In this document: positions 9,201-23,064 of the stretch, piece by piece
How the letters are laid out: every line of letters starts with the position of its first letter
Position numbering within the stretch: position 1 is the first letter of the stretch
Position numbers and translations under genes: made by a program
The notes under the pieces: model-generated
The model's input: the letters and a program-made list of their open reading frames with translations, nothing else
What the model was told of the DNA's origin: nothing
Database searches by the model: none
Source: a virus
Reading direction: 5' to 3' (one strand)
IMG/VR virus record: IMGVR_UViG_3300024433_000057
Location: 1 to 23,064 of that record
DNA: 23,064 nt

Positions 9201-12200
9201 TCACGAACATCGGATCGATCAACGTTCGCCCCCGCCTTCCTCGGGCACGGGTCTTTGCGTATTCCGAGACAGGGTTCCCAGAATTCGATGCCGAGATCGC
9301 TGCGGCGGGAGGTACAACCTTTAGTAGTCAACCGCGCCCCGCGGTGATTGCCACCCCGCTTACTCTTCAGGACCTACCGTTGGCTCAAAACGGACTTCCT
9401 GATGTGTCCCAGTTGGCGGCCCAGGGGGGAGAAACCATCGATCTCACCACGGGGGACCCTGACTTGTTCACCCCACCCTTCACCGAAGGGAAACTCAAGG
9501 TAGCTTTTGGCCGTCCGGACGGACGGATCATTGACGTTTCTTCGGGCGAAGCCTTCTCGTTCCAGTTCCCTCCCGGGACGGATATCACCACGCTGAAATC
9601 TGTTTTCGTGGGAGAGGTGTTGCTTGGGTGCATTGCTACCTTTGCCGATGAAGATGGGAACGTGCTGACTTCATCGTCGCAAGTTCAAGAAGTCTCCGAA
9701 GACGCTCAGTCCACAGTCGGCCCCGTGGAATTGTTCCAGGGGGACACCTTCTTTGTGACACCACCGGATGCCGATGTGCGGATGGGCGGCGATCCAAACC
9801 AGCCCCCGACCGCTGCGGAGTTGGAAGCCAGTGTTACCGGGCTCCCGGGCTATCGAATCCAGTTCGACCTTCGGGTGGATCGAAGTGATGGTGAGTACGA
9901 GGATGGTACCTTTTCCTCGTTCAAGGACCCTTCCATTCTGGGGCTCAAGGAGATCTTGGGACAGCGGCCACCGTCGCCTTTGACCAACCTTGAGGCCGAC
10001 GTACGGTTCCGAAACTCACGGACGGAACCGTTGGAGATCCCGGCCTTGATTGGGGGCCCCTTCAATGACTCAGGGGACTACTCCTTGCCCTACCTGGTGG
10101 CGCCAAACACGGAGAAGAACCGACTCGGCGAGGCACAGCAGGCATTCAACACCTTGTTCATTGACTCCCCTCAGCCTTCGGCCATCTACCCCGATGAAAT
10201 CCAAGGCGTGGACGGACAGGTGATTGCCACCTTCGCGTTCCCGGCGATCCCCGCAACGCTTACGACGAGCCTCAATGCAGAGCCCGCCTTTGTGGCTGGG
10301 CAGGGGATTGGTCCTGTTCGTGAGTTCGATCTGTTTTTCGTGGAGACGAACCAGACCACGATTCCTGTAGGAACACAGGGCATCTTGTCCGTTGGGGCAG
10401 TCAACGGTGGTCCCGGTGGATCTACGTTCGAGGCCCCTCGTTTTGTATCCCCGACACGGGTTGGCGATAGGATTCGTTACCGTTTCCTGAATGCTATGGC
10501 GTTTGTCAACCAACCGCCGAACCCAACGCCTCCAGGCATTGTGGTGACTCGGGTGGGTACGCAGACCACGTTCGACATTACCTCGATCTCGACCGCTTTC
10601 CTGGTGTTCAATAATGGACAACCGGCGGTAACGAACGGGGGTCTCAACGACATCTTCAACCCTTCAGGATTGCCGTATCCGAACAACGCCAACCGAGTGA
10701 CGATCAATCTGTTCAACCCGAACACGAACACGTTCTTGCAAAGCGTGGTGATCGACATCAACAACGGAGCCCCCACCGTTACAGGTAACGCAGGTGCGCA
10801 GGGAATCAACGTGCTGCCTACGGCGACGGACAACTTGATTACCATTGACACCACGAACCCGTTTGTGACGATCGGGCTTGGTCCTGCACCAGAGCTTCCA
10901 GAAGACCCTCTCAACCCGGGAAGTTCCTTGCCACTGGAGTTCACCATTGACGTGGATACAAGTGACAACGGTAATGTCGCAGCCAACACGGGTTCCTTTG
11001 GAGCTTTCATCGACAATGACCGTTTGAGCTTTGTCGAAGCGTTGGACTTGCGAACGGTCCTTGACCGAAATGCGCCCCCCATCGATGGTGTAGATGTTTT
11101 TGGCCAACTCTCAGTGTTCTTTGTGTCGGGGTCTGGTACCGATGCCTTGACGATCAACGGGCCTCTGGAGGTCAATGGCAACGCTCCCTTCACTTTCCCG
11201 GAGCGAGCTTCAGGGTTTACAGCCGGAGGTGACTTCAATCCCAATACCGGAGTGGGGCGCATCAAGGTCCCTGGGTTTGAAGGCTTTGGGAACGGTGTCA
11301 TCGCCTCTACCGGGGAGGTTGTGTTCTCGGCTATCCCATCCTCGGACCAAGACGAGGGCGGCATCATTTGTCAGGGCTCTGGATTTGCGGAGAGCGCGGT
11401 TACCAACCCTGACTTCGACAACCGGATCATCAACACCACCATTACAAACGGTGGTTTAGACCGGGTTCAGCCTGGGGATGTTGTCGTAGTAGAAACCGAT
11501 GTGGCAGGACAGGCGACAACCAAGGCAGGCACTTATCTTGTCAAGTTCTCCGAATCCCCCACGGGGATCAACCCCTATCGAGAGATCCTGGGGACATCCA
11601 CACAAACGGTTCCTTTCAACACGGGGGTAGGCTGGGCACAGGTTCGATTCCCCTTGCTTGTGAGCGTGGACATGTCTTCGGCCCAAGTGACCGTGGACAA
11701 CGTAACCCTGTCAACGGGTGCGAATGCCTTTGCTCCTACAGGCCGACTGTATTTTGTGATCCAGACCCAAGACATCACGCAAACAATCAGCTTGGACTAC
11801 ATCGGGGTCAATCCCGTAACTGGGGAGTTCCAAGTCCAGCAGGGATCTGGTCTGGAGGCAGACGGGGCTACTCCGGTTCCGGATGCTGTGTTTGACGCTC
11901 TTGCTGTCGGCACACCCGTCACTGGGTTTGTGCTTGTCGAGGTCCGACTGGACCGGTCACAGGACCCGACCCCTCCTAACCGAAATGCAGTCGGGTTCCA
12001 AGGAGACGGCACGTTCTCGTTTGCGGGCGGTGGTACTGGATTTGGGTTCCGGAACATTACGCTGGACAACGTCAACGGTGTTCCTCAGTCGTTTGACTAC
12101 GAGCAGTTTGCCCTCTCCGGTGCTGGCAATGTGATTGTCAACAACCCCCCCGGTGCTGACCAGCTTGCGCTAAGTCCGGCAGTCCCCGTGGCCCCTGGGC

Positions 12201-14161
12201 AGTTCCAGATCACGGAAGATGCGGTGGTCTATCCGAACGTTGCCGAGGTGCTGGACTTGTCTGGGCTCACAGGGCCCGTTTGGGCGGCCCTTCACGGAGG
12301 TAGCTCCGTCGATGCGTTGTTCCCGACCGACACGTTGGCGGCCGATTTGCGGCTCCAGACGGGCCTGTTCCTGGAGCCTACCTTCCCTCGCCCTGTCCAG
12401 AACCTGACCGGGGCTGGGCCTTACGTGGTCGACACCGCCAATAGCTTGGCGCCCTCTCAAGTGGGGTTCCGGGACGGACCCTCCTTCGGCGCGGCTACCA
12501 CGCCCGAGACCGTTCTTTTCCAAGTTCGGCGCATTCGACGGTTCCATGATGTGCTTGATGGGATCGCAGACATTCTCAATCCGCTTCGATTCGTTTACCA
12601 AACCCGTCGAGGCACCGTCTCCAGCTTCGGTCCCGCCGTCGTGGGCAACGGTGGGAGTTGGCCGTTTGTGGTCACGGCGGCCGGAGGGACCAACCTGGGT
12701 CCCTTTGACGACCCCGACGTGGGGATCTTCCCGAATGATGTCTTCCGACTCTTGGACGATGACGGGACGCTTCTGGAAGAAGTTGAGATCGCGGCGGTGC
12801 AAAGTGGGACCCAAGTGGTGCTAAAAGCGCCGGGGATCACTGCACTTTCCGCGGCGCAGGCAGCAGGCAAGCCTTTCGAGATCTACCTACGGAATGCCCC
12901 TGTGCCCCAGGAGCAAAACGGGAACCAGCTTTTAGACTTGATCACGGATCAAGTATTGCTTGAGCGACGTGCGAACTACGCAACTCAAACGGGCGGCTTT
13001 GTCGCAACCGAACAAGATCCTCTGCAAGACCGGGCAGTTCGAGATACGGATGGGGCCGTAAACTTTGCAGCGTTGGGGGTTCAGCCAGGGGACCTTGTTG
13101 TCATTGATCCGGCCGGGGATCTTCGAGGCACCGGAGGGGTTCCTGGTACGGGTCTAGAGCGCGGGTCAAGGCCCTTCGGCGACCGCAGTGTGCCTAACCG
13201 TACTGTGGCTCAGTCGGGACAGGAGGTGCCTTTCCAGGCAGGAGCCCCATCTGAGTTGGATGACAACCGCGGGTGGTACCGGGTGTCGGAGGTGACGGAA
13301 GATACGGTGATCGTCGAGTCCGGGAACTCCTTTGCTGGGGGTTTGGGGGCGCCAAATGTGACCTTCGGTACAGTGATCGAGTACGCCGTGTACCCTACGG
13401 TCTCAAACTCCGCAGCACCCTTTGCGACCAACCTCGTGGAGGGTCAAAACGATTTGCGTCCTACAGCCTTTGCTGGCCAGGACGGGTCTCCCCCTAACTC
13501 CTATCGAAACAACCTGTTCTCGATCGCACCCTTTGGGTACAAGATTTTGCGTCCAAGCGGCTTGTTCTCCGAAGAGGCTGTAGATCTGGCGCTCTTTATC
13601 CGAGAGCGGACCTTGTCGTTCCTTGAGGAATTTGACGTGTTCTTCCGAGGGGACAAGTCGGGATCGTACTTTGTATTCCAGCGGGACAACCACATTGCGG
13701 ATTTGGGGAACCCCTTGATCCCAGATGAGGGTAAAGGCGTGATCTCAAATGAACTGGTCAACGGCGTTCGAGGGGAAGTCGGGATCTCTCCCTTTGCCAA
13801 TACCTCGGATTGTTTGTCGGTTCTAGATCGTCGCTTCTACATCAACGATTTCCGTTTGGATAACGAGTTCCCCCCAGGGCAGGTCAATGTGCCATCTTTT
13901 GCGGCGTTGAACAACAACGCGAACAACCCGAATGCTCCGGAGGGGGATGGGCGTCCCGTGCTCCCGGACTTGATCACGGACGTTTTGGACAACAATGATC
14001 AGTTTCGGGAGCTTCGCTTCTCATGGCTGAGCTTCCGAACGAACCGGGAGGATGGTACACTAGCAACAGTGGAACGATTCCAAAACGAGTTCGATAAGCG
14101 CAGGAAGAACCAGCTTCGCCAACTACGGCTTCAAAAATCGCTACAGGACGGTAGATCATGA
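3296..14161 (+). CDS. Giant 3621-residue modular virion protein (probable baseplate/tail-tip or fibre-network component)
   Basis: One uninterrupted frame of 10,866 bases encodes a protein of roughly 390 kDa. No enzymatic motif is evident; it is beta-rich, full of Gly, Pro, Asn, Asp and Thr, and lacks long coiled coils. Several module types recur. At least six units of the form 'G..(P/A)G(D/H).(V/L).(I/L)...G.(Y/F).(V/I)' begin near residues 950, 1396, 1491, 2720, 3138 and 3256. Units of the form '(S/T)TG.L.F...G..(V/L).(Y/F)' lie near 326, 429, 1196 and 1603. Residues about 641-735 hold an 'LN...G.I.IG...ALGF' module also seen in the gp25-like protein. Helix-plus-DGKF segments at about 1743-1785 and 3425-3465 look like a divergent duplication. 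The last 40 residues are basic and helical (FDKRRKNQLRQLRLQK). It starts 9 bases after the previous stop with a weak RBS (AAGAGA), and its TGA overlaps the next ATG (ATGA). Location between spike and wedge genes suggests an outer baseplate or fibre-anchoring role, which is inference. Confidence 0.9.
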   Translation: MGFALSGFVLRAPRVAPANAIATDEPTNGVEQDYKSLPPLSYQIPAPQFTSVSEDQYRAAVLLEPGGETETEYLIFAANTADLKDRADFEVLGESRAIVGAGNLTVIQIIPDPDPGNPFTSSSQVELTDGTDRVFIFDQANRTIQNVTTLVAVRGDTGDEFDLSNAIAWNPVTSTATITDSALLSLLGGGLSAERGDTVRRIGTVLAAPTFWWTKNDRYETRFKWDGQRGRWAPLKGTPPRNLNRLLVGESYVLSPAPRIRVGGFLPGNSGDADSYSMVRLGRRPDSTSMPVAEPVSSSGFGGIRVVLDDEVQDFDFATDPTLSAIVGQTTGELVWNPAFVDAFAGQTIFYSYQGFIDQPQSDPTNIEPLGELETSAGNPLFLAPIPGPTDFPFVRIGNRQFLDAKIVDTDALLEVLVVEEGQVGVSLSTGRLKFSQIDIDKADPDSATFDSLYLGAQVFYDGLSLTQRPLQTKAPVQLVNGSGQPTTVSSSNSLFIPDASPLPSPGVSGVQFRLDGTGFPPNGSTAPGIRPNESGLVRDVRGPWDLFFFGESGQIRSVRLVDDDDEIPRFDFQLPRNVAIVDLREKAGGSQVILSKEDRKRFNGEALFFLQTSVQPAVYHDQARMFSRVRGAFFLEGDEVFVFRIGGLTYTWDAATDPGGVSTSQGGEFTPEEIVQSLNAVITGPGSAIVLGDRIALQTQNLINGKRWGQIEIGFGPGGEKDLSGPAALGFLPGWLLNVPAASQGPNPFDPPEVRFLPDNGSNLGVFRSPLNLGGRQESISDVNHIDRFDDVALVSSISPSPVVLLDRPPLEDIPGYDDGVFFRFQNGLLFRNLQNYEDVFYDFGTRRLFWADRRRQFSFVEQPSLEIQLDRQRIIAQSFRLPSNSLRVSEQGSPFETQVLNEDFLVLDGGASGRLTLINQVGTSVFLGGRGAFTAGSTTFIDNSVDVDFVALGVKKGFQLQIQAGDAQGTYVVASDATLPNTLTVEQPFPADGVAVPWELFEGVDRDTFDEGIVADVQFTQFQHLPEEPFRIRVLSDLGENPGTPTAQSMNRLVAVVGDALNSGREISLRFGLPNGSPSASLRSLSTQNLGQVSNDTQFVPGVSTERFANNNFSIRVGNKTYTFGNGDLVKVPTVTSNLTGDVIEVQDFDGLLNFGSEVLNQFEGSDTIYVEEFLDPATSPISLPQGVAEFSPTSGEINLSLGDLTAFSEENVYFVELMVTENAQDVTLNPIQGSFLFSKPLRDFQLVEAEYFLAENGTGDLLLTPPENDPEGTPVPTRVIEFLPLTVSLETATPTNDQTRWTFNPTGRTVEEGVAVYIGSTLTNVGNSPVSTVEPEPSVIIFQNPVPDTSNVRISYTVLETFGGEVTFTTSQQPVFRPPFFIEADQSSFTLETDRTADVVAGQLLRVGEFAFYITAVSYDASTNSTLVEFTPPTQLEAGSKDPSTDSISVLSSDPVAKAFNPDANDGFFIEVPNSYDPINRGRQDIIFDGNLTNLAVAGHILELGGLPFVITGSTLIDNGTRTQVDISAFFPRGFNADQDDARISGRPVYAPTPSTFVGLGALVSDQRFELILFGEINDQGLELPGRTLRESIEYEIDLSTGDLQFLDPPQGPLLPGQALYLRRTAQRGLFPVLQDGELLLPKFLAQFAHIIQPSEENNLLRGILRAQYTFSQPDSWYFRTTPLLRYLGEVADEVARDVSALLPSQGPQGAVIPPIENKNQGNVGLRSEGRNLEDEDRAARVFLEFYNEVVVAYEQVLETISGDIIGDRDGKFRFFIGRDNEFTPPGFENAITGELNRRNIFSELWFGYNRNIVFLRRDPLVQPNGASLNGDQIIGPFIDPDLLDDLRGQQSDLIMNDVDDVVLVSRTRKRLRLFPFRLESFGRYKLVGEPSRFSRIFPERAEAFTLTDPGIGSDLESDPIKPGVYAFRKRVRRFSISGDGITLPKRASTFGKAIGDIGNPVLGQITNIGSINVRPRLPRARVFAYSETGFPEFDAEIAAAGGTTFSSQPRPAVIATPLTLQDLPLAQNGLPDVSQLAAQGGETIDLTTGDPDLFTPPFTEGKLKVAFGRPDGRIIDVSSGEAFSFQFPPGTDITTLKSVFVGEVLLGCIATFADEDGNVLTSSSQVQEVSEDAQSTVGPVELFQGDTFFVTPPDADVRMGGDPNQPPTAAELEASVTGLPGYRIQFDLRVDRSDGEYEDGTFSSFKDPSILGLKEILGQRPPSPLTNLEADVRFRNSRTEPLEIPALIGGPFNDSGDYSLPYLVAPNTEKNRLGEAQQAFNTLFIDSPQPSAIYPDEIQGVDGQVIATFAFPAIPATLTTSLNAEPAFVAGQGIGPVREFDLFFVETNQTTIPVGTQGILSVGAVNGGPGGSTFEAPRFVSPTRVGDRIRYRFLNAMAFVNQPPNPTPPGIVVTRVGTQTTFDITSISTAFLVFNNGQPAVTNGGLNDIFNPSGLPYPNNANRVTINLFNPNTNTFLQSVVIDINNGAPTVTGNAGAQGINVLPTATDNLITIDTTNPFVTIGLGPAPELPEDPLNPGSSLPLEFTIDVDTSDNGNVAANTGSFGAFIDNDRLSFVEALDLRTVLDRNAPPIDGVDVFGQLSVFFVSGSGTDALTINGPLEVNGNAPFTFPERASGFTAGGDFNPNTGVGRIKVPGFEGFGNGVIASTGEVVFSAIPSSDQDEGGIICQGSGFAESAVTNPDFDNRIINTTITNGGLDRVQPGDVVVVETDVAGQATTKAGTYLVKFSESPTGINPYREILGTSTQTVPFNTGVGWAQVRFPLLVSVDMSSAQVTVDNVTLSTGANAFAPTGRLYFVIQTQDITQTISLDYIGVNPVTGEFQVQQGSGLEADGATPVPDAVFDALAVGTPVTGFVLVEVRLDRSQDPTPPNRNAVGFQGDGTFSFAGGGTGFGFRNITLDNVNGVPQSFDYEQFALSGAGNVIVNNPPGADQLALSPAVPVAPGQFQITEDAVVYPNVAEVLDLSGLTGPVWAALHGGSSVDALFPTDTLAADLRLQTGLFLEPTFPRPVQNLTGAGPYVVDTANSLAPSQVGFRDGPSFGAATTPETVLFQVRRIRRFHDVLDGIADILNPLRFVYQTRRGTVSSFGPAVVGNGGSWPFVVTAAGGTNLGPFDDPDVGIFPNDVFRLLDDDGTLLEEVEIAAVQSGTQVVLKAPGITALSAAQAAGKPFEIYLRNAPVPQEQNGNQLLDLITDQVLLERRANYATQTGGFVATEQDPLQDRAVRDTDGAVNFAALGVQPGDLVVIDPAGDLRGTGGVPGTGLERGSRPFGDRSVPNRTVAQSGQEVPFQAGAPSELDDNRGWYRVSEVTEDTVIVESGNSFAGGLGAPNVTFGTVIEYAVYPTVSNSAAPFATNLVEGQNDLRPTAFAGQDGSPPNSYRNNLFSIAPFGYKILRPSGLFSEEAVDLALFIRERTLSFLEEFDVFFRGDKSGSYFVFQRDNHIADLGNPLIPDEGKGVISNELVNGVRGEVGISPFANTSDCLSVLDRRFYINDFRLDNEFPPGQVNVPSFAALNNNANNPNAPEGDGRPVLPDLITDVLDNNDQFRELRFSWLSFRTNREDGTLATVERFQNEFDKRRKNQLRQLRLQKSLQDGRS

Positions 14162-14262
14162 GAGTTATCACAGTGATTCGAAAGCCCTTGTCTGAGGGAA
14201 ACGTAGCCAAGAACTGTTTGAAGCACGGTACGGGGGCGTTGAATATCGACGCTTGCCGGGTG
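14158..14262 (+). repeat. Conserved block 1 of the methyltransferase-fragment paralogues (copy 1)
   Basis: The first 35 codons are 91/105 bases identical (about 87%) to 17525-17629, and 32 of the 35 residues match. Similarity begins at the start codon; the upstream flanks are unrelated. Confidence 0.9.
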
Positions 14263-14604
14263 GGGTTAGGGCCGAAGGAAGATATGGCAAAACTTTCTGC
14301 TCGAAGTGGGGGCGAGCCAGGCTTCCGCAAGGATAGTTATGTCGGCGGGAAAGTGGATGGTGGTCTTCCTCCCGGATGGGATTGCACCAAGGGACGTTGG
14401 CCGGCGAACTTGATCCACGATGGTAGTGCCGAGGTGGTGGGGAAATTTCCCCAGACGGGGAAGAGTTCGGGCGGGGTCGACAAAGCGGGGAAGTTCTCGG
14501 GCCAATATGGGGCATTCGCGGGCAATAACCCGGGCGGGTCAGTAGGGGGGTTCGGCGACGAATCTGCCGCACGGTTTTTCTTCTCCACGAAGGGTGCTAC
14601 CTGA
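14158..14604 (+). CDS. Free-standing DNA-methyltransferase target-recognition-like fragment, copy 1
   Basis: The 148-residue protein matches only the middle of beta-type adenine/N4-cytosine DNA methyltransferases (N6_N4_Mtase group). Three conserved blocks are visible: residues 8-35 (RKPLSEGNVAKNCLKHGTG, then ALNIDACRV), 79-100 (GRWPANLIHDGSAEVVGKFP) and 136-141 (SAARFF). In full-length enzymes these surround the target-recognition segment, between the DPPY-type catalytic motif and the SAM-binding F.G.G motif. Both of those motifs are absent here, so it cannot methylate DNA alone. The frame is intact, has its own ATG (AGGA at 14145-14148 as a weak RBS), and is coupled on both sides: ATGA with the giant gene and TGATG with the 92-residue gene. 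That argues for an expressed gene rather than debris. A paralogue lies at 17525. Possible roles are DNA binding, a partner or inhibitor of a full methyltransferase, or a domesticated virion protein; none is shown. Confidence 0.75.
   Translation: MRVITVIRKPLSEGNVAKNCLKHGTGALNIDACRVGLGPKEDMAKLSARSGGEPGFRKDSYVGGKVDGGLPPGWDCTKGRWPANLIHDGSAEVVGKFPQTGKSSGGVDKAGKFSGQYGAFAGNNPGGSVGGFGDESAARFFFSTKGAT
14392..14457 (+). repeat. Conserved block 2 of the methyltransferase-fragment paralogues (copy 1)
   Basis: These 22 codons (GRWPAN to FPQT) are 60/66 bases identical to 17738-17803. The sequence between blocks 1 and 2 is not alignable between the copies. Confidence 0.9.
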
Positions 14605-14882
14605 TGGCCCAAAAGAAGGCACATTACGACTTCGATTTCGATGTCTCCAAAATGACCCCCGAGGAGGTCAAGGAAAAACTGCGAGAAGGTGGCATCCCGT
14701 TTGAATCTTGGGTCCACAATGAAGAGGAGAAAGAAGTCACTACTTTGCCGATGTTTGAGCGTCAAGCAGAGCTTCTAAAGCAATTGGCAGGTATCTTGGA
14801 AGACCAGATTGAGAACGATGTGAAGGAAGTTGACACGCTCAATGTGCAGCTTCATCGCCTCAAGAGAGGTGGCGGACAATAA
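14604..14882 (+). CDS. Small charged helical protein of 92 residues, unknown function
   Basis: I do not recognise a family. The N-terminal half is acidic and aromatic (HYDFDFDVSKMTPEEVKEKL), continues with GIPFESWVHNEEEKE, and is followed by one long amphipathic helix from about residue 48 to 85 (MFERQAELLKQLAGILEDQI) suited to a coiled coil. The tail is basic and Gly-rich (LKRGGGQ). The ATG overlaps the preceding stop (TGATG), with GAAGGG at 14589-14594 as a plausible RBS. Its TAA is immediately followed by the ATG of the 880-residue gene, so it is tightly coupled to both neighbours. Size and composition would suit a small assembly factor or adaptor for the following large protein. That is a positional guess. 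Confidence 0.85.
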   Translation: MAQKKAHYDFDFDVSKMTPEEVKEKLREGGIPFESWVHNEEEKEVTTLPMFERQAELLKQLAGILEDQIENDVKEVDTLNVQLHRLKRGGGQ

Positions 14883-17525
14883 ATGTCGAATCCAGAACAG
14901 GGACCACAACAGCAAGGCATCCTCGGTCAATGGCAGACCGTGGAGCTTGCTGTGCCCGATTTCCTGGAACCCACGCGCCAGGCAATCGACCAGTTCTTCA
15001 CGACGCTGGTCAATATCCTCACGGTTCTGGTTCAGGTTCTTGAGGTTCTGAAGGTTTTTGCAACGGGGCTTTTGGACCCCGTGGTTGCCATCGTTGAGCG
15101 AATTCAGCGGCTTATCGAAGCCCTCCTAAACGATCTCCGACAGGCGGGGGTTTACCTCCACGGGGATTTCTATGTCCTCAACGGCCCGGATTTCCGAGAA
15201 CTGCGTGGTGGCTTCCTTCAGTATGAACGACGGATGCTCAATCGGTTGACCAACCCGAACGATCCCAATCGACCCGACATCTCTGAGTTCTCTACGGTCA
15301 TTGCCGTATTCTTGTACGCTGGGACTGATATCCGGGGCGTCAATCGTATCATCCGGCTCATTTCCAGTATCCTGCGACTGTTTAACCGTCGTGTACCTGT
15401 CCCCCGTCTCCAAAATCAGGTCTACAACGTTCGTGCGACTTACGGGTATGACGGGGCAACCATCTTCTCGTATAACAAGAGCTTCTTTCGAGGGTTTAGA
15501 CCCCGCGGTAACGCGGGTGAGATCAACAACCCGGCAAGTCCTTACAATGCCGTGAACCTCACCTGGGAGATGGCACCGATCCCCGGTGGCACCATCTTCC
15601 CGGATATCCCTGTTTCCCCTCCTGCGGGATTCCTGGTTGAGTTCTCCACTTTGCGTCAAGGGCTTCCTCTCGTGTACGAACGCGCGATCGAGGGAACGAC
15701 GGAAACATTGGCACTGACCAATCCCTTGGCAAAGCGAGAAGCTGCGCAGATCATTGATGAGGAAGGCAACCCTGTGCTCCTCACAGGAGGATCCGATCAG
15801 GTTTTGGTCCGCGGGTCGGTTCAGTTCAACGATCCAATCATCAACTTTCAGGGGGAGACTCGACCGGATGCTACGCGGGTCTATGCGCTCAAGAATCTTG
15901 CAGACCCCACCCCTATCCCATTGGACCAACTCCAAGAGGGTGACAACTACTACCTCCAGCGTACATTCTTTGTCCCTGCTTCCCAAGGGATCTTCTTTGC
16001 GGGACGGCAGTACGGGGCCACGTTCACTTTCGATCAGATGCCTTTTGCCGCCGAGTTTGACGAGCAAAATGGGCGCGTGGTTCGAATCAATGACCGAGAC
16101 CGACCGGAGCAATTCTTTGTCCGAGTCCGCGCAGTCACCCGGGCAATCCGGTCCAACACGGACTGGCAATACCTGATTGACGAGACGACCCTCCGAGACC
16201 GGGAGGGCCCCGTCGCCACGATGAAGAACCCGGAGATTGACTTCAACGACCGGGGGCCTTCTTCCTCCGTCACGCAGATCTTGTTCCCGGATGCAAGTAC
16301 CGAGATCTGGCTTCGCGCCGTATCGGAAGCGTTGGCTCTTCTTGTGCTCGCGCGGTCAGATTTGACGGTATTCCGAGGCACAGAAGGACCCCTGGACTTT
16401 CCACCGACACCGGGGCAAACGGCCATTACCGGTGTGATCCCCACCCAATGGGGGCAGTTTGCGGGAACGGCCCGGTTGGAAACTCAAATGGAAGATCTGG
16501 CATCGTTCATGATGCCTCAACTGGTGGGGCGTCGCCAGATCCGAAAATACTTCGACGAAGCCGGAGTCGACCCCGCGACCTTCCGAAGAAAACTCTTTAT
16601 CAACGTCATCAACACGACGAATCGGTTGTTTACCAAAAACGCCCCGCCCTTGTCGACGCGGCAGTTTGCGGCAAACGCCGCTGAGGATCTTCTCAACTTC
16701 CGCGTGCTCTTTCAAGAGTCGGGGTTCTCCACCACATTGGACCCAAACGTCGATGGGGGGTTTAGCCTTCTAGAGCTTTTGACAAGGGATGACACCACGG
16801 AAGGTATCGGGGTGAACTCCTCGTCGCTAGGACTTGTCGGAGAGCGGGCTCAGGCTTTGGCATCTTTTCAATGCCGTAGCAATGCCGTGTTGCCACGATT
16901 CCCTCATATTTTCGAGGCTGTGAATCCGAATGCGAACGTCGTCGTAGGGTCGGTAGAGCATCTCCCAGTCGTCTACAAGCGTCGGGGCAGGACGATCCAA
17001 GAGGTTGCGTACGTGCGAAACTTGGTTCCGGATTCGGTATATCGAGCGGCGGCGACGGTTCTTCAACTTGCGGTAGGCCCCCAAGTATCTCCCCAGGAGC
17101 GTGGGTGGATCACGTTCCGGTTGTTCCCCCAAGGGCTTCCTGCGATTGACCAGTTCTTTGATCAGATCTTGGCGCTTTTGCGGAGCATCCAGGCTTCCAT
17201 CGAGAGCATTGCCGAGACGATCCGTAGATACATCGAATTCCTACAGTCAAGAATCTTGGAGCTTCAGGCATTCTTGAACCGAATCAACAACCTGATTCAG
17301 CTCCTTCTCCGGTTCTTCTTGTCCGTCACGCCCGCTGCGGGTCTTGTGCTTGTGGCTCCCGGAACTTCAGGGATTATCTCCGGTCTGGTAAGTGCTCAGA
17401 ACAAGCCGATTGAGCCCAACCCAGCCGAGCGTGACTCCATTGGCGGCGGGGTGGTCATCCTGGCCGGTGGGATCCCGAACATTGCTTTGGATATCTTCCG
17501 AGCCTTCTTCCAGGGGGACACCTGA
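14883..17525 (+). CDS. 880-residue tail/baseplate structural protein with helical ends
   Basis: I recognise the style of a large phage virion protein but not a named family. Residues about 28-85 form hydrophobic heptad-like helices (IDQFFTTLVNILTVLVQVLE and onward). Residues about 754-812 form a second helical bundle beginning with the same AIDQFF motif and rich in LL and I..I spacings. Between them lies a beta-rich region with a segment SPPAGFLVEFSTLRQGLPLV near 245-264 and a Gly-rich turn LTGGSDQVLVRG near 300. The C-terminus is hydrophobic and Gly-rich (VLVAPGTSGIISGL). The hydrophobic runs carry regular charges and look like coiled-coil or packing helices rather than membrane spans. The start immediately follows the 92-residue gene's stop (AGAGGT upstream as RBS); the TGA overlaps the second methyltransferase-fragment start. 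Probable baseplate wedge or tail-tube-adjacent component, by context. Confidence 0.88.
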   Translation: MSNPEQGPQQQGILGQWQTVELAVPDFLEPTRQAIDQFFTTLVNILTVLVQVLEVLKVFATGLLDPVVAIVERIQRLIEALLNDLRQAGVYLHGDFYVLNGPDFRELRGGFLQYERRMLNRLTNPNDPNRPDISEFSTVIAVFLYAGTDIRGVNRIIRLISSILRLFNRRVPVPRLQNQVYNVRATYGYDGATIFSYNKSFFRGFRPRGNAGEINNPASPYNAVNLTWEMAPIPGGTIFPDIPVSPPAGFLVEFSTLRQGLPLVYERAIEGTTETLALTNPLAKREAAQIIDEEGNPVLLTGGSDQVLVRGSVQFNDPIINFQGETRPDATRVYALKNLADPTPIPLDQLQEGDNYYLQRTFFVPASQGIFFAGRQYGATFTFDQMPFAAEFDEQNGRVVRINDRDRPEQFFVRVRAVTRAIRSNTDWQYLIDETTLRDREGPVATMKNPEIDFNDRGPSSSVTQILFPDASTEIWLRAVSEALALLVLARSDLTVFRGTEGPLDFPPTPGQTAITGVIPTQWGQFAGTARLETQMEDLASFMMPQLVGRRQIRKYFDEAGVDPATFRRKLFINVINTTNRLFTKNAPPLSTRQFAANAAEDLLNFRVLFQESGFSTTLDPNVDGGFSLLELLTRDDTTEGIGVNSSSLGLVGERAQALASFQCRSNAVLPRFPHIFEAVNPNANVVVGSVEHLPVVYKRRGRTIQEVAYVRNLVPDSVYRAAATVLQLAVGPQVSPQERGWITFRLFPQGLPAIDQFFDQILALLRSIQASIESIAETIRRYIEFLQSRILELQAFLNRINNLIQLLLRFFLSVTPAAGLVLVAPGTSGIISGLVSAQNKPIEPNPAERDSIGGGVVILAGGIPNIALDIFRAFFQGDT
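17512..17518 (+). promoter_or_regulatory. Ribosome binding site AGGGGGA for methyltransferase-fragment copy 2
   Basis: A purine-rich Shine-Dalgarno-like stretch lies 6 bases before the ATG at 17525, within the end of the 880-residue gene. It supports independent initiation of copy 2 at the TGATG junction. Copy 1 has only a weaker AGGA, so the two paralogues may differ in translation level. Confidence 0.5.
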
Positions 17526-17629
17526 TGCGCATTATCACAGTGATTCGAAAGCCCCTGTCTGAGGGGAACGTAGCCAAGAATTGTGTGAAGCACGGCACGG
17601 GGGCTTTGAATATTGACGCGGGTCGGGTC
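17525..17629 (+). repeat. Conserved block 1 of the methyltransferase-fragment paralogues (copy 2)
   Basis: Partner of 14158-14262, in direct orientation, 3367 bases downstream. By hand count 91 of 105 bases are identical, with many of the differences at third codon positions. Confidence 0.9.
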
Positions 17630-17959
17630 CCTACAGAAGACGATGTGAGTAATCACGGACGCAAACCCACGGAAAACGGGTGGGACCCGCGGATGTCGGG
17701 GGGGCAGCAGGCGGGGCAGACCGAAGGCCAAAAGCTCGGGCGTTGGCCAGCGAACTTGATACACGATGGTAGTGCCGATGTGGTGGAGAAATTTCCCCAG
17801 ACCAGCAGCGGCAAGATGTTGCCCACACATACGACCGCAGGGGTTGATGGTCGTGGGACGTTCGGAGCTGATGCGAAGGACGGGTTTACCACAATGGAGA
17901 CTTACGGAGACTCCGGCTCCGCCGCACGGTTCTTCAAACAGGTAGGAGGCAAGAGCTAG
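17525..17959 (+). CDS. Free-standing DNA-methyltransferase target-recognition-like fragment, copy 2
   Basis: The 144-residue protein is paralogous to the one at 14158. Block 1 (residues 1-35, RKPLSEGNVAKNCVKHGTG, then ALNIDAGRV) differs from copy 1 at three residues; block 2 (72-93, GRWPANLIHDGSADVVEKFP) at two; SAARFF is at 132-137. The parts between (36-71 and 94-131) share no convincing similarity with copy 1. As in copy 1, the catalytic DPPY-type and SAM-binding motifs of N6_N4-type methyltransferases are missing, and the tail (KQVGGKS) differs from the usual continuation into the SAM-binding half. The TGATG overlap with the 880-residue gene and direct abutment to the next ATG (TAGATG) place it squarely in the operon. 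An intact frame with mostly synonymous or conservative changes in the shared blocks suggests selection. Function unknown. Confidence 0.75.
   Translation: MRIITVIRKPLSEGNVAKNCVKHGTGALNIDAGRVPTEDDVSNHGRKPTENGWDPRMSGGQQAGQTEGQKLGRWPANLIHDGSADVVEKFPQTSSGKMLPTHTTAGVDGRGTFGADAKDGFTTMETYGDSGSAARFFKQVGGKS
17738..17803 (+). repeat. Conserved block 2 of the methyltransferase-fragment paralogues (copy 2)
   Basis: Partner of 14392-14457; 60 of 66 bases are identical. The distance from block 1 is shorter here (108 bases between blocks versus 129 in copy 1), so the intervening segment differs in length as well as sequence. Confidence 0.9.
17945..17949 (+). promoter_or_regulatory. Ribosome binding site GGAGG for the 314-residue gene
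   Basis: A consensus GGAGG lies 10 bases before the ATG at 17960, inside the last codons of methyltransferase-fragment copy 2. It supports that start and suggests good translation of the 314-residue protein. Confidence 0.65.
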
Positions 17960-18904
17960 ATGCCCTTCAACTACTTGGGGACCATGCGGGAGAACCAGTA
18001 TCGGTTCTTGCGTAACTTCCTACTCCGTGAGCGCCAGGCCGTTTCCGCTCGTCTTCGGTACATCAACTCGGAGCTGAGTAAGCTTGGCCGTGTGACGGTC
18101 ATTTACGAGCAGCAAACGACCCAAGTGCAAACACCGGAAGGTGCAGTGACGGACATTCAAACCGTCACCGAACGTCGTCAAGGCATCATCATTTCTGCGG
18201 GCTCCTCCTTGGAAAAGCTGGTGCAGGCATACATCGCCATGGGCGGAAACCCCAACAACGTTTCCATGTTTTTGACCCCAGATGACTTGCAGTTTGCCTC
18301 AGACCTAGACCCCGATGAAGATCCCGAGGTAAACCCGAACCAGATAAACACGGATATTGGCGTCCCCGACAACCCCTTTGACCAGCCGGGTGGGGGAATT
18401 GTGGGGGTGGAGTCCACAGATAGCTATGGCCCTGGCGGCCTGTATCGAGGTGGGCGCCCCAACTTCATCCGGGACCCCTATACCAAGATCGGTCGTTACA
18501 TCGATTTGGGGGACACGAACGCCAAGATTGCGATCAAGATGGACTATGCCCGACGATGGGCCACTCAGGAAATCAAAGAGCTGTCCCTCCTAGAGTCCCG
18601 AATTCTCAAACTGGCGGACCTTAGAGAGCAGCTCATCCAAGAGCGGGATGAACTGATTCAGCAAGCCGTAGGGGGATCCGTCCCAGACTATCCGAACCCG
18701 AATGACCCGGATCGGTACTCTCAAGCCCTCAATTTGACCAATATCGTCACTGAGATGGACCGGGTTTTCTACGTGACCGATGAAAACGGGAACCCGAACT
18801 TTGAGGCCATCAATTCAGGGACAGGGGACAACCCGACCGGAATCTCACTTTACGACACCCTCTTTCCCAATGACCCGGGGGAGGATCCATTTGTGACCCT
18901 ATAG
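17960..18904 (+). CDS. 314-residue helical protein, probable baseplate accessory; unknown function
   Basis: No family recognised. Residues about 12-42 form a basic amphipathic helix (FLRNFLLRERQAVSARLRYI), followed by a short beta/QT-rich stretch (about 44-80, including GRVTVIYEQQTTQVQTPEG). Residues 108-170 are low-complexity, rich in Asp, Pro, Asn and Gly (DLDPDEDPEVNPNQ) and probably unstructured. A long coiled-coil-prone helix runs from about 196 to 236 (EIKELSLLESRILKLADLRE). The last 60 residues are again Asn/Pro/Asp-rich. Two helices separated by a flexible linker suit a bridging or clamp role between larger structural parts; that is inference. It abuts the upstream stop with a good RBS and is followed after 15 bases by the gp25-like gene. 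Confidence 0.87.
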   Translation: MPFNYLGTMRENQYRFLRNFLLRERQAVSARLRYINSELSKLGRVTVIYEQQTTQVQTPEGAVTDIQTVTERRQGIIISAGSSLEKLVQAYIAMGGNPNNVSMFLTPDDLQFASDLDPDEDPEVNPNQINTDIGVPDNPFDQPGGGIVGVESTDSYGPGGLYRGGRPNFIRDPYTKIGRYIDLGDTNAKIAIKMDYARRWATQEIKELSLLESRILKLADLREQLIQERDELIQQAVGGSVPDYPNPNDPDRYSQALNLTNIVTEMDRVFYVTDENGNPNFEAINSGTGDNPTGISLYDTLFPNDPGEDPFVTL

Positions 18905-18919: not shown

Positions 18920-20089
18920 ATGTCCTACGACATCCAGTTGGCACATGTGTGTCCGCACCTTACCATCGAGGAAGAGGTGCCTTTGGGGGATGACCGAAGG
19001 TCTCTAAACACCGCTCAGCCCATCGGGGTAAGCGATGCAGTGGTAATTCGGGCTAACGGGATCCCGATCCCCCCTTCGGGTCTGTTCAGTTTCGCCGAGA
19101 TTTTCAGCGGATTTTCGGGGCCTTTCAATATCGTGAAGTTTGAAAACACCTTCACGGTAGCGAATCGCACAAGTTCGGTTACGGTAGCGCTTCCGGTAGG
19201 AAGCCGAGTACCTACCTCTCGGGTTGTGGAGATTTTGAATGCGGCCTTCCGGAACCAAAAGGTTCAGATCCTTGCGGAGGACCGTGACGGGATCTTGAAG
19301 ATTCAGGACCTACTGGAACGGGGGCCAGGTAGTCAGATCAAAGTGAGTGGAGATGCCGCCCCTCTCCTGGGGTTCGTGGATCAAATCCGCGCCCGTGGAA
19401 GGCAAGTTTACCCTGGCTATGAGCTGGCTGAGGAGCCGAACTTGGTCACGCTTTCTGGGCTTACCGGTGTCAAGTCCATTACGACACGGTTCCCCAAGTT
19501 CAAGACGCAGATCCGTGGAAACCCCGTTTTTACGGTGACCTACCGGACATTCCAAAACAAGTGCCGTCGTTGTCAGTCGACCGGCATCGAAAACGACTAC
19601 CGTTTAGCAGCCTCGGGGGACCCTCTCTTGGTTCGTAACGAGGACAAGCTCAACCAAGATGTCCTCAAGATCCTTACAACGATCAAGGGATCCAACCCGT
19701 ACATTCCTGATTATGGGTCGATGATCCCGACCCGGATTGGTCTCAAGGCGCTTCCTGCAAGTCAGACGGTGATCAATGAAGATGCGGTATCGGCCTTGAG
19801 GCTGTTCCAGCGGATTCAGCTTCTTCAAAGTCAGCTCCAGGAAGTCTCTCCCCGAGAGCGACTCAATACGATTTTGTCGGTAGATACGACGATAGAGATC
19901 ACCGACCCAACGGTGTTTAGAACAAACGTGGTCTGCTCGAATGCTTCAAACGAGCCGGTAGTCATCACCACGGTATTTGCAGCCCCCGGCACTGCGGCAT
20001 TGGCCGGGTCCAATGGGCTTTCCCTTGGATTAGAGGGGCTGGGCCTCGATCCTCGTACACGCACACTCCCCGGCATCGCGGTAAGGTAA
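18920..20089 (+). CDS. gp25/GpW-like baseplate wedge protein with N-terminal extension and CxxC motif
   Basis: The 389-residue protein probably forms part of the baseplate wedge that joins the inner baseplate to the tail sheath. Residues about 240-350 resemble the gp25/GpW family: NEDKLNQDVLKILTTIKGSN, then PYIPDYGSMIPTRIG, the expected 'loop for helices - G..P..P.YG' pattern, followed by a long helix (VSALRLFQRIQLLQSQLQE) and beta strands (RLNTILSVDTTIEITDP). Just before it, CRRCQSTGIENDY (215-227) carries a CxxC that could be half of a metal site; only two further Cys are present (C11 in HVCPH, C339). The first 190 residues are extra compared with gp25-type proteins of about 130 residues, and contain an 'LN..DGILKI..LLGF' module shared in style with the giant protein. 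Start ATG follows a 15-base gap with only a weak GGTGA. It directly precedes the J-like gene, the usual phage order. Confidence 0.75.
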   Translation: MSYDIQLAHVCPHLTIEEEVPLGDDRRSLNTAQPIGVSDAVVIRANGIPIPPSGLFSFAEIFSGFSGPFNIVKFENTFTVANRTSSVTVALPVGSRVPTSRVVEILNAAFRNQKVQILAEDRDGILKIQDLLERGPGSQIKVSGDAAPLLGFVDQIRARGRQVYPGYELAEEPNLVTLSGLTGVKSITTRFPKFKTQIRGNPVFTVTYRTFQNKCRRCQSTGIENDYRLAASGDPLLVRNEDKLNQDVLKILTTIKGSNPYIPDYGSMIPTRIGLKALPASQTVINEDAVSALRLFQRIQLLQSQLQEVSPRERLNTILSVDTTIEITDPTVFRTNVVCSNASNEPVVITTVFAAPGTAALAGSNGLSLGLEGLGLDPRTRTLPGIAVR

Positions 20090-20098
20090 CTTTGAGCT

Positions 20099-23064
20099 AT
20101 GGTTGCTACTCCTCAGATCATCGGTCCTGATGGGACTGCCCGAGACAACACGGTCTTTTCAACGACGATCCCCAACCGATTCTTTCGGGGCACGATCGAT
20201 CAGGGAACCGTGGATATGCAAATCTCTATCCGAGGTGGGGCTTTCACGTCCGATCCAGATCTGATTGTCTTTGAGGGGGACCAGTTTTTCTTTCCAAACC
20301 CCGCCGCTTTCCCGGAAGGACTAGAGCTTACCCAAGGTAAGAACACCATTCGAGTGCGCTCTGTAGGCTTCAACGGGTCCGTCTCGGATTCCGCTACCCT
20401 TGAAGTCACGCTGGTCCAGCAGTCAGATGTTGGTCTTATTGGCCGAACGCCTACAAACATCTCCATCGAGCAGTTCGATGACTCCGTGACCATCCAGGTC
20501 GAGGGCATTAGCGACCCAACTTTTGTTGGGATCAACTTCTACGCGGCACGCTTCCAAGGAGGTGGGGATTCCGGCTACCAGCTTATCAGTCTCAACACAG
20601 TATCCGATGCGACCACGGTGGAAGAAGAGCAACTTCTGCGCGGGATCGATGTTACGAACACGATTGCAACGAACCCAGATGGAACCCCTGCTGCGGACCC
20701 TCTCTTCTTGAAGATCAAAGAGACGCAAACACGGTCTCCGGATGTCATCGAGAAGCTAGAGGACGTGCCGCTTACTCCCGAGCTTGCCGCTTCGATTACG
20801 GAGCAAGAGCAAGAAAACCTTGTCAAGACGGATTTCGTTCAGACCTTTGAAGTCCCCGAGATTGTCAACCGTATTCGAACGGTCGTCAACGTGTCTAGTG
20901 TGGTGGAGCGACAGTTCTACCTGTTCAACCACAACCGCATCTTCGGTCCTGCGAACACCCCTCCCACGGTTGCCGTAAACGAGTTCCGTTCTCTCTCGAA
21001 CGGGGAGCCTTTGTACTATGTGGCGACAGCCGTGTACTACGACCCCGAGTTGCAGTTGGAGATCGAGTCCCCCTTCTCCATTGAAGTCTCGGGGCGTCCG
21101 GTAACGATTCAAGACACAGTGGGGACCTTCCCCTCCCCAAGCCGGATTCAGATCGTTGAGGATGTAATTTCGTCGCTTCGACGTACCCAACCTACGGCAA
21201 ACGTGGCCCCTGGTGGTGTTCTTCGAGACACCTTCATTGATCCCTTCGCGGATGAGGCATCCCGTCTTCGCTTTCTCGTAGACTTCCTGTACCGTTCTCA
21301 GTCCTTCGACACGCTCTTGCAGATTGATGGCATCGAGCCGAATGGAGAGTCGACCCCTGTTAGTCGGTCACCTTACAAGCAGGGGCTTCAGCGAGTGTTC
21401 GACCTCTCGAACCCGAATGATGTACAGGTCATTATAGACACCACCTTTGATCAGCTTGCGTCACGTCAAAGTGTGTTTCGTCGCCCCGGCGTGCGTGCTC
21501 GTGGTCTTGTCACCTTCTTCACTTCCAACCGCCCCTCTCAGTCCCTTTTCATCGGGCTTGGGACTCGGGTGGCATCGGGGGGTGTAACCTTTGTGACGAC
21601 ATCGGACGCGCTGATCCCGCTTTCCGATCTTGGGTCTTTCTTCAACCCGGTGACGGGGCTGTATTCGGTCGACGTGACGGTTCAGGCCGAACAGACAGGA
21701 ACCCAAGGTAACTTGTCTCCTGGGCAGATTAGGACGATCCTGAGCGCCCTCCCAGGGCTTTCCGTCACGAACCGAGCGCGCACCTTCGGCGGACTTGGCC
21801 GTGACTCAAACCTTCGCCTGTCAGAGCGGGCAAGGTCCGCACCGGCGTCGGTGGATTCCGGCACTGAGCAAGGGATTCGCCAGGTGGTGGCAGATGTCGC
21901 AGGGGTGGAGCAAGCCTTGGTGATCTCGGCCGGAGACCCTCTCATGCAGCGGGATTACGACCCGGAAGCAAATCGCAATGTGGGTGGTAAGGCCGACGTT
22001 TGGATTCGAGGGATTTCCATTGGCCAGGTGACGGACAACTTCGCCTTCACCTTTGAAGTGGCCAACGATGTGCAGTTTGGGATTGTCGGGAACCCGAACC
22101 AGTTGGTGTTCCGTTCCAAAGACAAGACGCTCTCCCCCGAGAACCCCATCTCGGAGATCATTGATCGGCAAGACCTAGGGCTTGGGTTTAGGAACGCTAC
22201 CTCGGGTCAGTTTTTCGATCTTACGGATGTCCGCGTTTTGGACTATCGGACAATCCAGCTCAGCTCTGCCGTCTTTCAGCCGCCCTTCACCTTTGGTGAT
22301 GTGCTTTTGGGGGACTACCGGTATCAGACCACGACGACTTTCACGTTTACTCGGCAACCCGTTAACAACGTCGTATCGGTCACGGGCCAGATCTCGGGTC
22401 CCCTTCCGGAAGAATCTTTCCAGCTCATCAACCCGGACGATCCTCTCCAAAAGGGTAGGTCTACGGAAGCGCAGAGCTTCCTGCGAATCACTCCGGTTGA
22501 TGGGGTCCCCTCGGGGGCCATGCTTACAGTCCAAAACGAACAGCGCATCATGATTGGGCAGTTCGACGAGTTCCTGGGCAACCTGGGAGTCAACCCTCTA
22601 ACCGTCCGAGTGTTTAACGTTAGTCGCACGGTGGAGTATCGTGGACCCGATGATCCTTCTGGGTTCTCGGATTACTCCATTGTCCCTGGTTCTGCGACTC
22701 GGGCGTTGGCGATCCGGCGAACAGAGAACAGCCAGATCCAGTCAGGTCAGCGGGTGCTTGTAGACTACGAGCACGCGGAAAACTTCTCCGTGGCCTACGA
22801 CGTGAACTTTGTGGTGTCAACGACTCAAGATGCCGTGGAGCAGATCGAGGGGGTCACTTACGATATCCTTGTCAAAGAGGCGGTACCTGTACCCGTGGAC
22901 GTGACGGCGACCGTGATTTATCAGCAAGGGGCTGTCCAATCGACAGTAGATCGCACGGTTCGCACAAACCTGGCTACCTTCATCAACTCCCTCAATCAAG
23001 GGGGCTCTATCCGTCAGTCGGACATCATCTCGGTAATCGACAACAGCGCAGGGGTGAGCTTCGT
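20099..23064 (+). CDS. Baseplate J/gp6-like wedge protein (3' end beyond the window)
   Basis: An open frame of 988 complete codons runs off the window. It is probably the main dimerising wedge protein that forms the ring around the baseplate hub. Residues about 35-105 and 130-170 look like Ig-like or fibronectin-like beta domains (DMQISIRGGAFTSDPDLIVF). The J-family core follows: GGVLRDTFIDPFADEASRLR (372-391); GLGTRVASGGVTFVTT (486-501), the beta-strand 'G..~~T..G~.F.T' region; TFGGLGRDSNLRLSERA with SVDSGTEQGIRQVVADVAGV (584-603); GKADVWIRG (about 632-640); and a C-terminal LVKEAVPVPVDVTATV...INSLNQGGSIRQSDIISVI tail typical of the family. The start at 20099 lies 9 bases after the previous TAA and lacks a strong RBS, so coupling is likely. 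It is longer than T4 gp6 (about 660 residues) or P2 GpJ (about 300), mainly through the N-terminal extension and an insertion at about 690-900. Confidence 0.88.
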   Translation, partial: MVATPQIIGPDGTARDNTVFSTTIPNRFFRGTIDQGTVDMQISIRGGAFTSDPDLIVFEGDQFFFPNPAAFPEGLELTQGKNTIRVRSVGFNGSVSDSATLEVTLVQQSDVGLIGRTPTNISIEQFDDSVTIQVEGISDPTFVGINFYAARFQGGGDSGYQLISLNTVSDATTVEEEQLLRGIDVTNTIATNPDGTPAADPLFLKIKETQTRSPDVIEKLEDVPLTPELAASITEQEQENLVKTDFVQTFEVPEIVNRIRTVVNVSSVVERQFYLFNHNRIFGPANTPPTVAVNEFRSLSNGEPLYYVATAVYYDPELQLEIESPFSIEVSGRPVTIQDTVGTFPSPSRIQIVEDVISSLRRTQPTANVAPGGVLRDTFIDPFADEASRLRFLVDFLYRSQSFDTLLQIDGIEPNGESTPVSRSPYKQGLQRVFDLSNPNDVQVIIDTTFDQLASRQSVFRRPGVRARGLVTFFTSNRPSQSLFIGLGTRVASGGVTFVTTSDALIPLSDLGSFFNPVTGLYSVDVTVQAEQTGTQGNLSPGQIRTILSALPGLSVTNRARTFGGLGRDSNLRLSERARSAPASVDSGTEQGIRQVVADVAGVEQALVISAGDPLMQRDYDPEANRNVGGKADVWIRGISIGQVTDNFAFTFEVANDVQFGIVGNPNQLVFRSKDKTLSPENPISEIIDRQDLGLGFRNATSGQFFDLTDVRVLDYRTIQLSSAVFQPPFTFGDVLLGDYRYQTTTTFTFTRQPVNNVVSVTGQISGPLPEESFQLINPDDPLQKGRSTEAQSFLRITPVDGVPSGAMLTVQNEQRIMIGQFDEFLGNLGVNPLTVRVFNVSRTVEYRGPDDPSGFSDYSIVPGSATRALAIRRTENSQIQSGQRVLVDYEHAENFSVAYDVNFVVSTTQDAVEQIEGVTYDILVKEAVPVPVDVTATVIYQQGAVQSTVDRTVRTNLATFINSLNQGGSIRQSDIISVIDNSAGVSF

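Follow-up and report, generated by a model that had tools for sequence, protein, structure and literature searches.

Multispecific phage C5 methyltransferases of the M.SPR and M.phi3TI type carry several recognition modules on one catalytic core and act in anti-restriction. Beta-class N6-adenine methyltransferases such as CcrM, M.BceJIV, and M.RsrI (PF01555) are of the same fold family as the relatives of M1 and M2, two small genes that we analyze here in a 23,064-nucleotide stretch of viral DNA (IMG/VR virus record IMGVR_UViG_3300024433_000057; hereafter the window). The window is a 23 kb fragment of a larger genome. A separate and exchangeable specificity subunit, resembling the one that we propose here, is found in Type I systems (HsdS) and in "Type 1 1/2" methyltransferases, the latter with a separate S subunit of a single target-recognition domain (TRD) (PMC3874165). 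The S subunits of Type I systems comprise two half-specificities (PMC3874165). Division of an enzyme into separately encoded, complementing polypeptides is also known from M.AquI and M.EcoHK31I, which are two-polypeptide C5 methyltransferases (PMC3404938).

We report that M1 and M2 probably encode alternative specificity subunits of a split methyltransferase, the catalytic genes of which would lie outside the 23 kb fragment. Our literature searches returned no description of this arrangement; their coverage was thin for subscription journals and preprints, and an earlier description is possible.

M1 and M2 match only the recognition segment of beta-class methyltransferases

M1 and M2 are each open throughout their frame, and sequence comparison divides each of them into two conserved blocks and two variable segments.

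14158-14604 (+): M1, stand-alone TRD gene, 148 aa, ATG start, TGA stop
14158-14261 (+): conserved block 1 of M1 (repeat D1; partner 17525-17628, 88%)
14262-14391 (+): first variable (putative half-recognition) segment of M1, unrelated to that of M2 and common to the stand-alone TRDs of contig L206
14392-14456 (+): conserved block 2 of M1, GRWPANLIHDGS (repeat D2; partner 17738-17802, 92%)
14457-14565 (+): second variable segment of M1
17525-17959 (+): M2, second stand-alone TRD gene, 144 aa, ATG start, TAG stop
17525-17628 (+): conserved block 1 of M2 (repeat D1; partner of 14158-14261)
17629-17737 (+): first variable segment of M2, unrelated to that of M1
17738-17802 (+): conserved block 2 of M2, GRWPANLIHDGS (repeat D2; partner of 14392-14456)
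17803-17916 (+): second variable segment of M2 (SGKMLPTHTTAG..GFTTMETYGDSG), 76% identical to the same segment of the full methyltransferase in contig L103

An earlier note on this DNA, made from the sequence alone, had described two intact small genes with KPLSEGNVAKNC..HGTGALNID, GRWPANLIHDGS, and SAARFF and nothing else of a methyltransferase. We found all of these blocks in both genes. The catalytic motif IV (DPPY type), motif X (HPTVKP), and the S-adenosylmethionine (SAM) motif I (DPFxGSG) were absent from M1 and M2, both on direct reading and in a profile search. The two proteins matched, far above chance, phrog_3008 ("DNA methyltransferase"; expectation value E = 4e-10 for M1 and 3e-9 for M2) and a 383-position profile of 28 phage methyltransferases (E = 3e-31 and 8e-35, respectively). 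The profile match was confined to positions 161-298, a segment flanked in the enzyme by the DPPY half and the SAM-binding half. M1 and M2 hold only the segment between motif VIII and motif X of beta-class adenine methyltransferases. The model of a full-length relative had its best matches in CcrM and M.BceJIV. The earlier note had likewise read them as recognition segments that cannot catalyze alone and that make a good candidate for an undescribed system, and we concur on each point. Searches of Pfam with M1 and M2 (E up to 1) gave no match, including no HsdS Methylase_S-type domain. PADLOC gave no match to a Type I specificity subunit (HsdS), Rfam gave nothing, and a search of solved structures with the fragment profile gave no match.

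M1 and M2 are 56% identical as proteins. At the DNA level, they share one block of 104 nt (88% identity) and another of 65 nt (92% identity), between which the sequence is unrelated. Within the blocks, the synonymous rate (Ks) is 0.46 and the nonsynonymous rate (Ka) is 0.049, and the resulting Ka/Ks of ∼0.11 points to purifying selection. In DNA identity across the blocks, the two genes are nearer to one another (89-91%) than to the full enzymes tested (at most 73-83%), and segments inside full enzymes resemble M1 and M2 with up to 51-55% identity.

Stand-alone TRD genes form a family in viral contigs

Ordinary similarity searches with M1 and M2 returned full enzymes, and viral scans performed before the start pattern was relaxed gave full enzymes only, or nothing. 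The family came to light in a scan for a start codon located a few codons upstream of RKPL, and aligning the first finds led to many more. Scans of viral contigs yielded >30 further stand-alone copies with similar ends: they begin with M(R)[VI]I[TH]V.RKPL, have GRWPAN in the middle, and carry [AS]RFF[KQMR] near the end, with the start codon 5-7 codons before RKP and the stop soon after [AS]RFF[KQMR]. The residue after RFF was K, Q, M, or R in all 34 distinct stand-alone sequences used for the C-terminal comparison, and mostly Y in full enzymes. M1 and M2 both begin with MR[VI]ITVIRKPL, with the start codon at the family's distance from RKP. M2 ends in SAARFFKQVGGKS, in which RFFKQVGG, with KQ after ARFF, is the stand-alone C-terminal signature. 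No mobility gene accompanies the stand-alone copies.

In bacterial genomes, a first scan gave no relative, and a second gave only four, none of which proved to be stand-alone. Matches in mycobacteriophages and other annotated genomes were considered as stand-alone precedents and rejected; the genes inspected were full-length methyltransferases. In Mycobacterium phage Phineas (L013:2171-2864), two short genes annotated as methyltransferase follow just after a full one, and a search with M2 found no match in them. Separately, the full methyltransferase open reading frames (ORFs) of L109, L020, and L021 contain in-frame inserts of ∼100-200 aa with a high content of S, T, and W, close to the recognition segment's borders. 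The inserts are located after RFFKQCK in L109 and before the EPxxxARKPL strand in L020 and L021, and they had no Rfam match.

Catalytic, SAM-binding, and recognition parts are separate genes in other phages

On 13 contigs, an N-part (with DPPY and without the SAM motif), one or more recognition parts, and a C-part (with the SAM motif and without DPPY) are encoded by separate genes, usually in one cluster and often overlapping. Per contig, there is a single C-part, accompanied by 1-5 N-parts and 1-7 recognition parts; the counts of TRD, N-, and C-parts are 7/2/1 in G010, 6/5/1 in G018, 4/2/1 in G020, 3/4/1 in G013, 3/1/1 in G019, and 3/2/1 in G007. The two larger parts have lost complementary motifs. 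DPPY is present in 25/25 intact N-parts and motif I in 0/25, while motif I (DPF[LM]GSG) is present in 14/14 C-parts and DPPY in 0/14. Hence, only a combination of the two can carry both the catalytic and the SAM motif. Most N-parts terminate at WEP..[IV][GA].K, the point at which a recognition segment would follow, and most C-parts retain a degenerate N-like half without DPPY.

N- and C-parts are present in each of the eight contigs >100 kb that have a stand-alone TRD; among these eight, G004 and G005 are apparently the same phage, and G012 has one TRD fused to the C-part and an interrupted N-part. Three other contigs >100 kb, with unsplit enzymes (G021-G023), had no stand-alone TRD. The earlier note had suggested that M1 and M2 might pair with a full enzyme encoded elsewhere. 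We retain the partner elsewhere but not the full enzyme, as the relatives show split DPPY (N) and SAM-binding (C) genes. Among annotated phages, only two records cover 80% of the C-part, at 26% identity, and so we found no cultured phage with the split system.

Some of the larger parts are themselves interrupted. The C-part genes L325:2653-4566 (-) and L326:1195-3030 (+) contain an insert of ∼300-400 aa with Hint and LAGLIDADG matches, probably an intein, and the C-part at L333:1673-3562 is of a similar length. An N-part of 589 aa (L335:2790-4559, -) has ∼400 aa inserted after profile position 96, without a family match. Two other N-parts are broken at the same place, right after DPPYG, by an in-frame stop (L341:3591-3593, +) or a frame change (L327:2642-2657, -); decay, error, or a further split could account for these breaks.

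The two variable halves of recognition parts are shuffled

Each recognition part has two variable halves around GRWPAN. We compared 15,400 pairs of recognition segments at a sharing threshold of 60% identity (the 99th percentiles of shuffled controls were 36% and 44%). Only the first half was shared in 24 pairs, only the second in 68, and both in 3; the two halves assort almost independently. The first half of M1 is 64% identical to that of a stand-alone TRD (L206:7532) that belongs to an array in G010. L206 comprises six tandem genes with one-base overlaps, in which halves are reused in differing combinations; the genes at 7532 and 7963, for example, have one half in common and differ in the other. 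This pattern of sharing would be expected if each half reads part of the target, by analogy with Type I S subunits (PMC3874165).

Relative to contig L011, M1 and M2 are insertions at gene junctions of a baseplate operon

M1 and M2 lie in a run of co-directional, tightly packed genes that ends in a gp25-like gene (18920-20089) and baseplate J (20099-23062), which bears out the earlier description of a baseplate operon. The genes directly around M1 and M2 had no convincing family match; the 3621-aa ORF upstream of M1 (3296-14161, +) had no PHROG match in the three stretches tested. A relative contig, L011, matches this gene order without M1 or M2. Its flanking genes are 66-70% identical to those of the window, and the small gene after M1 is 46% identical. 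At either site, L011 has a clean start/stop junction in place of the missing gene, and relative to it M1 and M2 are therefore precise insertions that are coupled in translation.

14158-14161 (+): M1 insertion junction, ATGA, where the stop of the 3621-aa gene overlaps the M1 start; in L011, the same overlap joins straight to the next gene
17523-17527 (+): M2 insertion junction, TGATG, where the stop of an 880-aa gene overlaps the M2 start; in L011, a 314-aa gene begins at this same TGATG
17940-17962 (+): AGGTAGGAGG in the M2 tail, which probably serves the next gene, starting at 17960, as its ribosome-binding site

The AGGAGG in the M2 tail, just ahead of the next gene, is placed as might be expected for a cistron fitted into a coupled operon. 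M1 and M2 were likely, if not provably, gained here rather than lost in L011, given that LR745208 has no stand-alone copy. LR745208 is a complete huge phage of 485 kb with related baseplate genes (42% identity).

TRD genes are also found away from methyltransferase genes in other phages. On four contigs, a TRD has the same location, flanked by a DnaB-like helicase and a DnaG-like primase; in G007, this location is ∼90 kb away from the N/C cluster. In other phages, a member of the family adjoins the split methyltransferase genes. Dispersal of TRDs into unrelated core operons has precedent. Operon placement may set when the specificity of a TRD becomes available, and a late operon would coincide with progeny DNA that is about to be packaged.

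Discussion

We propose a three-component beta-class DNA methyltransferase, probably acting on N6-adenine, for which M1 and M2 would be two alternative target-recognition subunits. The C-part, with motif X, the SAM-binding motif I, and a degenerate N-like half that lacks DPPY, would come from a single gene; the N-parts, each a DPPY half that stops precisely at the point where the recognition segment would follow, from one or more genes; and the interchangeable recognition parts from several small genes. An active enzyme would assemble only from an N-part, a C-part, and one recognition part together, and each recognition gene would add a target sequence to those methylated. In the phage of the window, the baseplate operon would have gained two recognition genes as translation-coupled cistrons, and we expect the genes for the N- and C-parts to lie in other regions of the larger genome. 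Late expression from this location might serve to mark progeny DNA against restriction. More tentatively, large phages in general may use a combinatorial adenine methyltransferase, in which a single SAM-binding subunit works with several DPPY subunits and with arrays of exchangeable TRDs that have two shuffling halves. With TRD genes distributed over operons that are expressed at different times, the sequences methylated could then change in the course of infection and evolve by the swapping of one small gene.

Several observations weigh against the proposed split enzyme. LR745208, the nearest complete relative, has three full-length methyltransferases elsewhere in its genome in addition to lacking stand-alone copies. 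A profile search found no N- or C-part in the window, and there was none in two related contigs of 13.9 and 19.7 kb. M1 stops 7 residues after SAARFF and ends in FFFSTKGAT, which is not the stand-alone signature. AlphaFold gave no confident fold for M1 alone (predicted local distance difference test score, pLDDT, 49.7) and was uninformative; the recognition region was poorly predicted within the model of a full enzyme as well.

The full enzymes of LR745208, which encodes no split one, the similar segments inside full enzymes elsewhere, and the lack of N- and C-parts in the window would also suit proteins that derive from full methyltransferases and act in trans on a full enzyme, as a decoy, inhibitor, or specificity modifier. 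We consider this unlikely, since every long contig with stand-alone TRDs carries split N- and C-parts, since none of the full enzymes tested is as close to M1 or M2 as these are to each other, and since M2 has the stand-alone C-terminal signature. Freely swapped variable halves flanked by conserved blocks, at clean gene junctions that are empty in L011, are what selfish or silent TRD cassettes would produce, spreading into operon junctions mainly as recombination donors for TRD or methyltransferase genes and with little function as proteins. Start, stop, and frame are nevertheless preserved in nearly all copies seen, the conserved blocks are under purifying selection, the helicase/primase position is conserved across four phages, and mobility genes are missing, all of which make such cassettes improbable.

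Their location in the baseplate operon would fit methyltransferase pieces recruited as virion or assembly proteins, one of the roles that the earlier note had suggested for M1 and M2. But L011 has the same baseplate genes without M1 or M2, and TRD relatives occupy other operons; no such role is needed for a family that elsewhere adjoins split methyltransferase genes or lies between helicase and primase, and we regard it as very improbable. Hardly credible, finally, is the decay of one full methyltransferase gene, which the earlier note had also considered and which would explain why only part of an enzyme is present. It is contradicted by the empty sites in L011, by the Ka/Ks of the conserved blocks, and by the many intact stand-alone homologs with similar ends, and it would have to leave two intact copies at two junctions with no neighboring remains of the rest of the enzyme.

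If the proposed split enzyme is correct, it would apparently be the first beta-class methyltransferase with catalytic motif, SAM motif, and recognition module all on separate genes, and with as many as seven recognition subunits in one phage. Such a system would offer many protective methylation specificities at a low coding cost, changed by the gain or loss of a ∼0.4 kb gene, and it would explain the short "methylase" fragments in phage genomes. Its natural parts would also lend themselves to studies of how the specificity of DNA methylation is determined.

Known beta-class members hold DPPY, the recognition region, and the SAM motif in one chain, whereas here these are divided over three genes, with M1 and M2 corresponding to the middle only. 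In multispecific phage C5 enzymes of the M.SPR and M.phi3TI type, the recognition modules are likewise in one chain, and here they are separate genes. HsdS and "Type 1 1/2" systems are gamma-class with an intact M subunit (PMC3874165); by contrast, the recognition piece here is an internal segment of a beta-class enzyme, two further genes would each encode part of the catalytic site, and one phage can have many recognition genes. M.AquI and M.EcoHK31I are of the C5 class and consist of two pieces with one specificity and no multiplied recognition subunits (PMC3404938), unlike the arrangement to which M1 and M2 probably belong.

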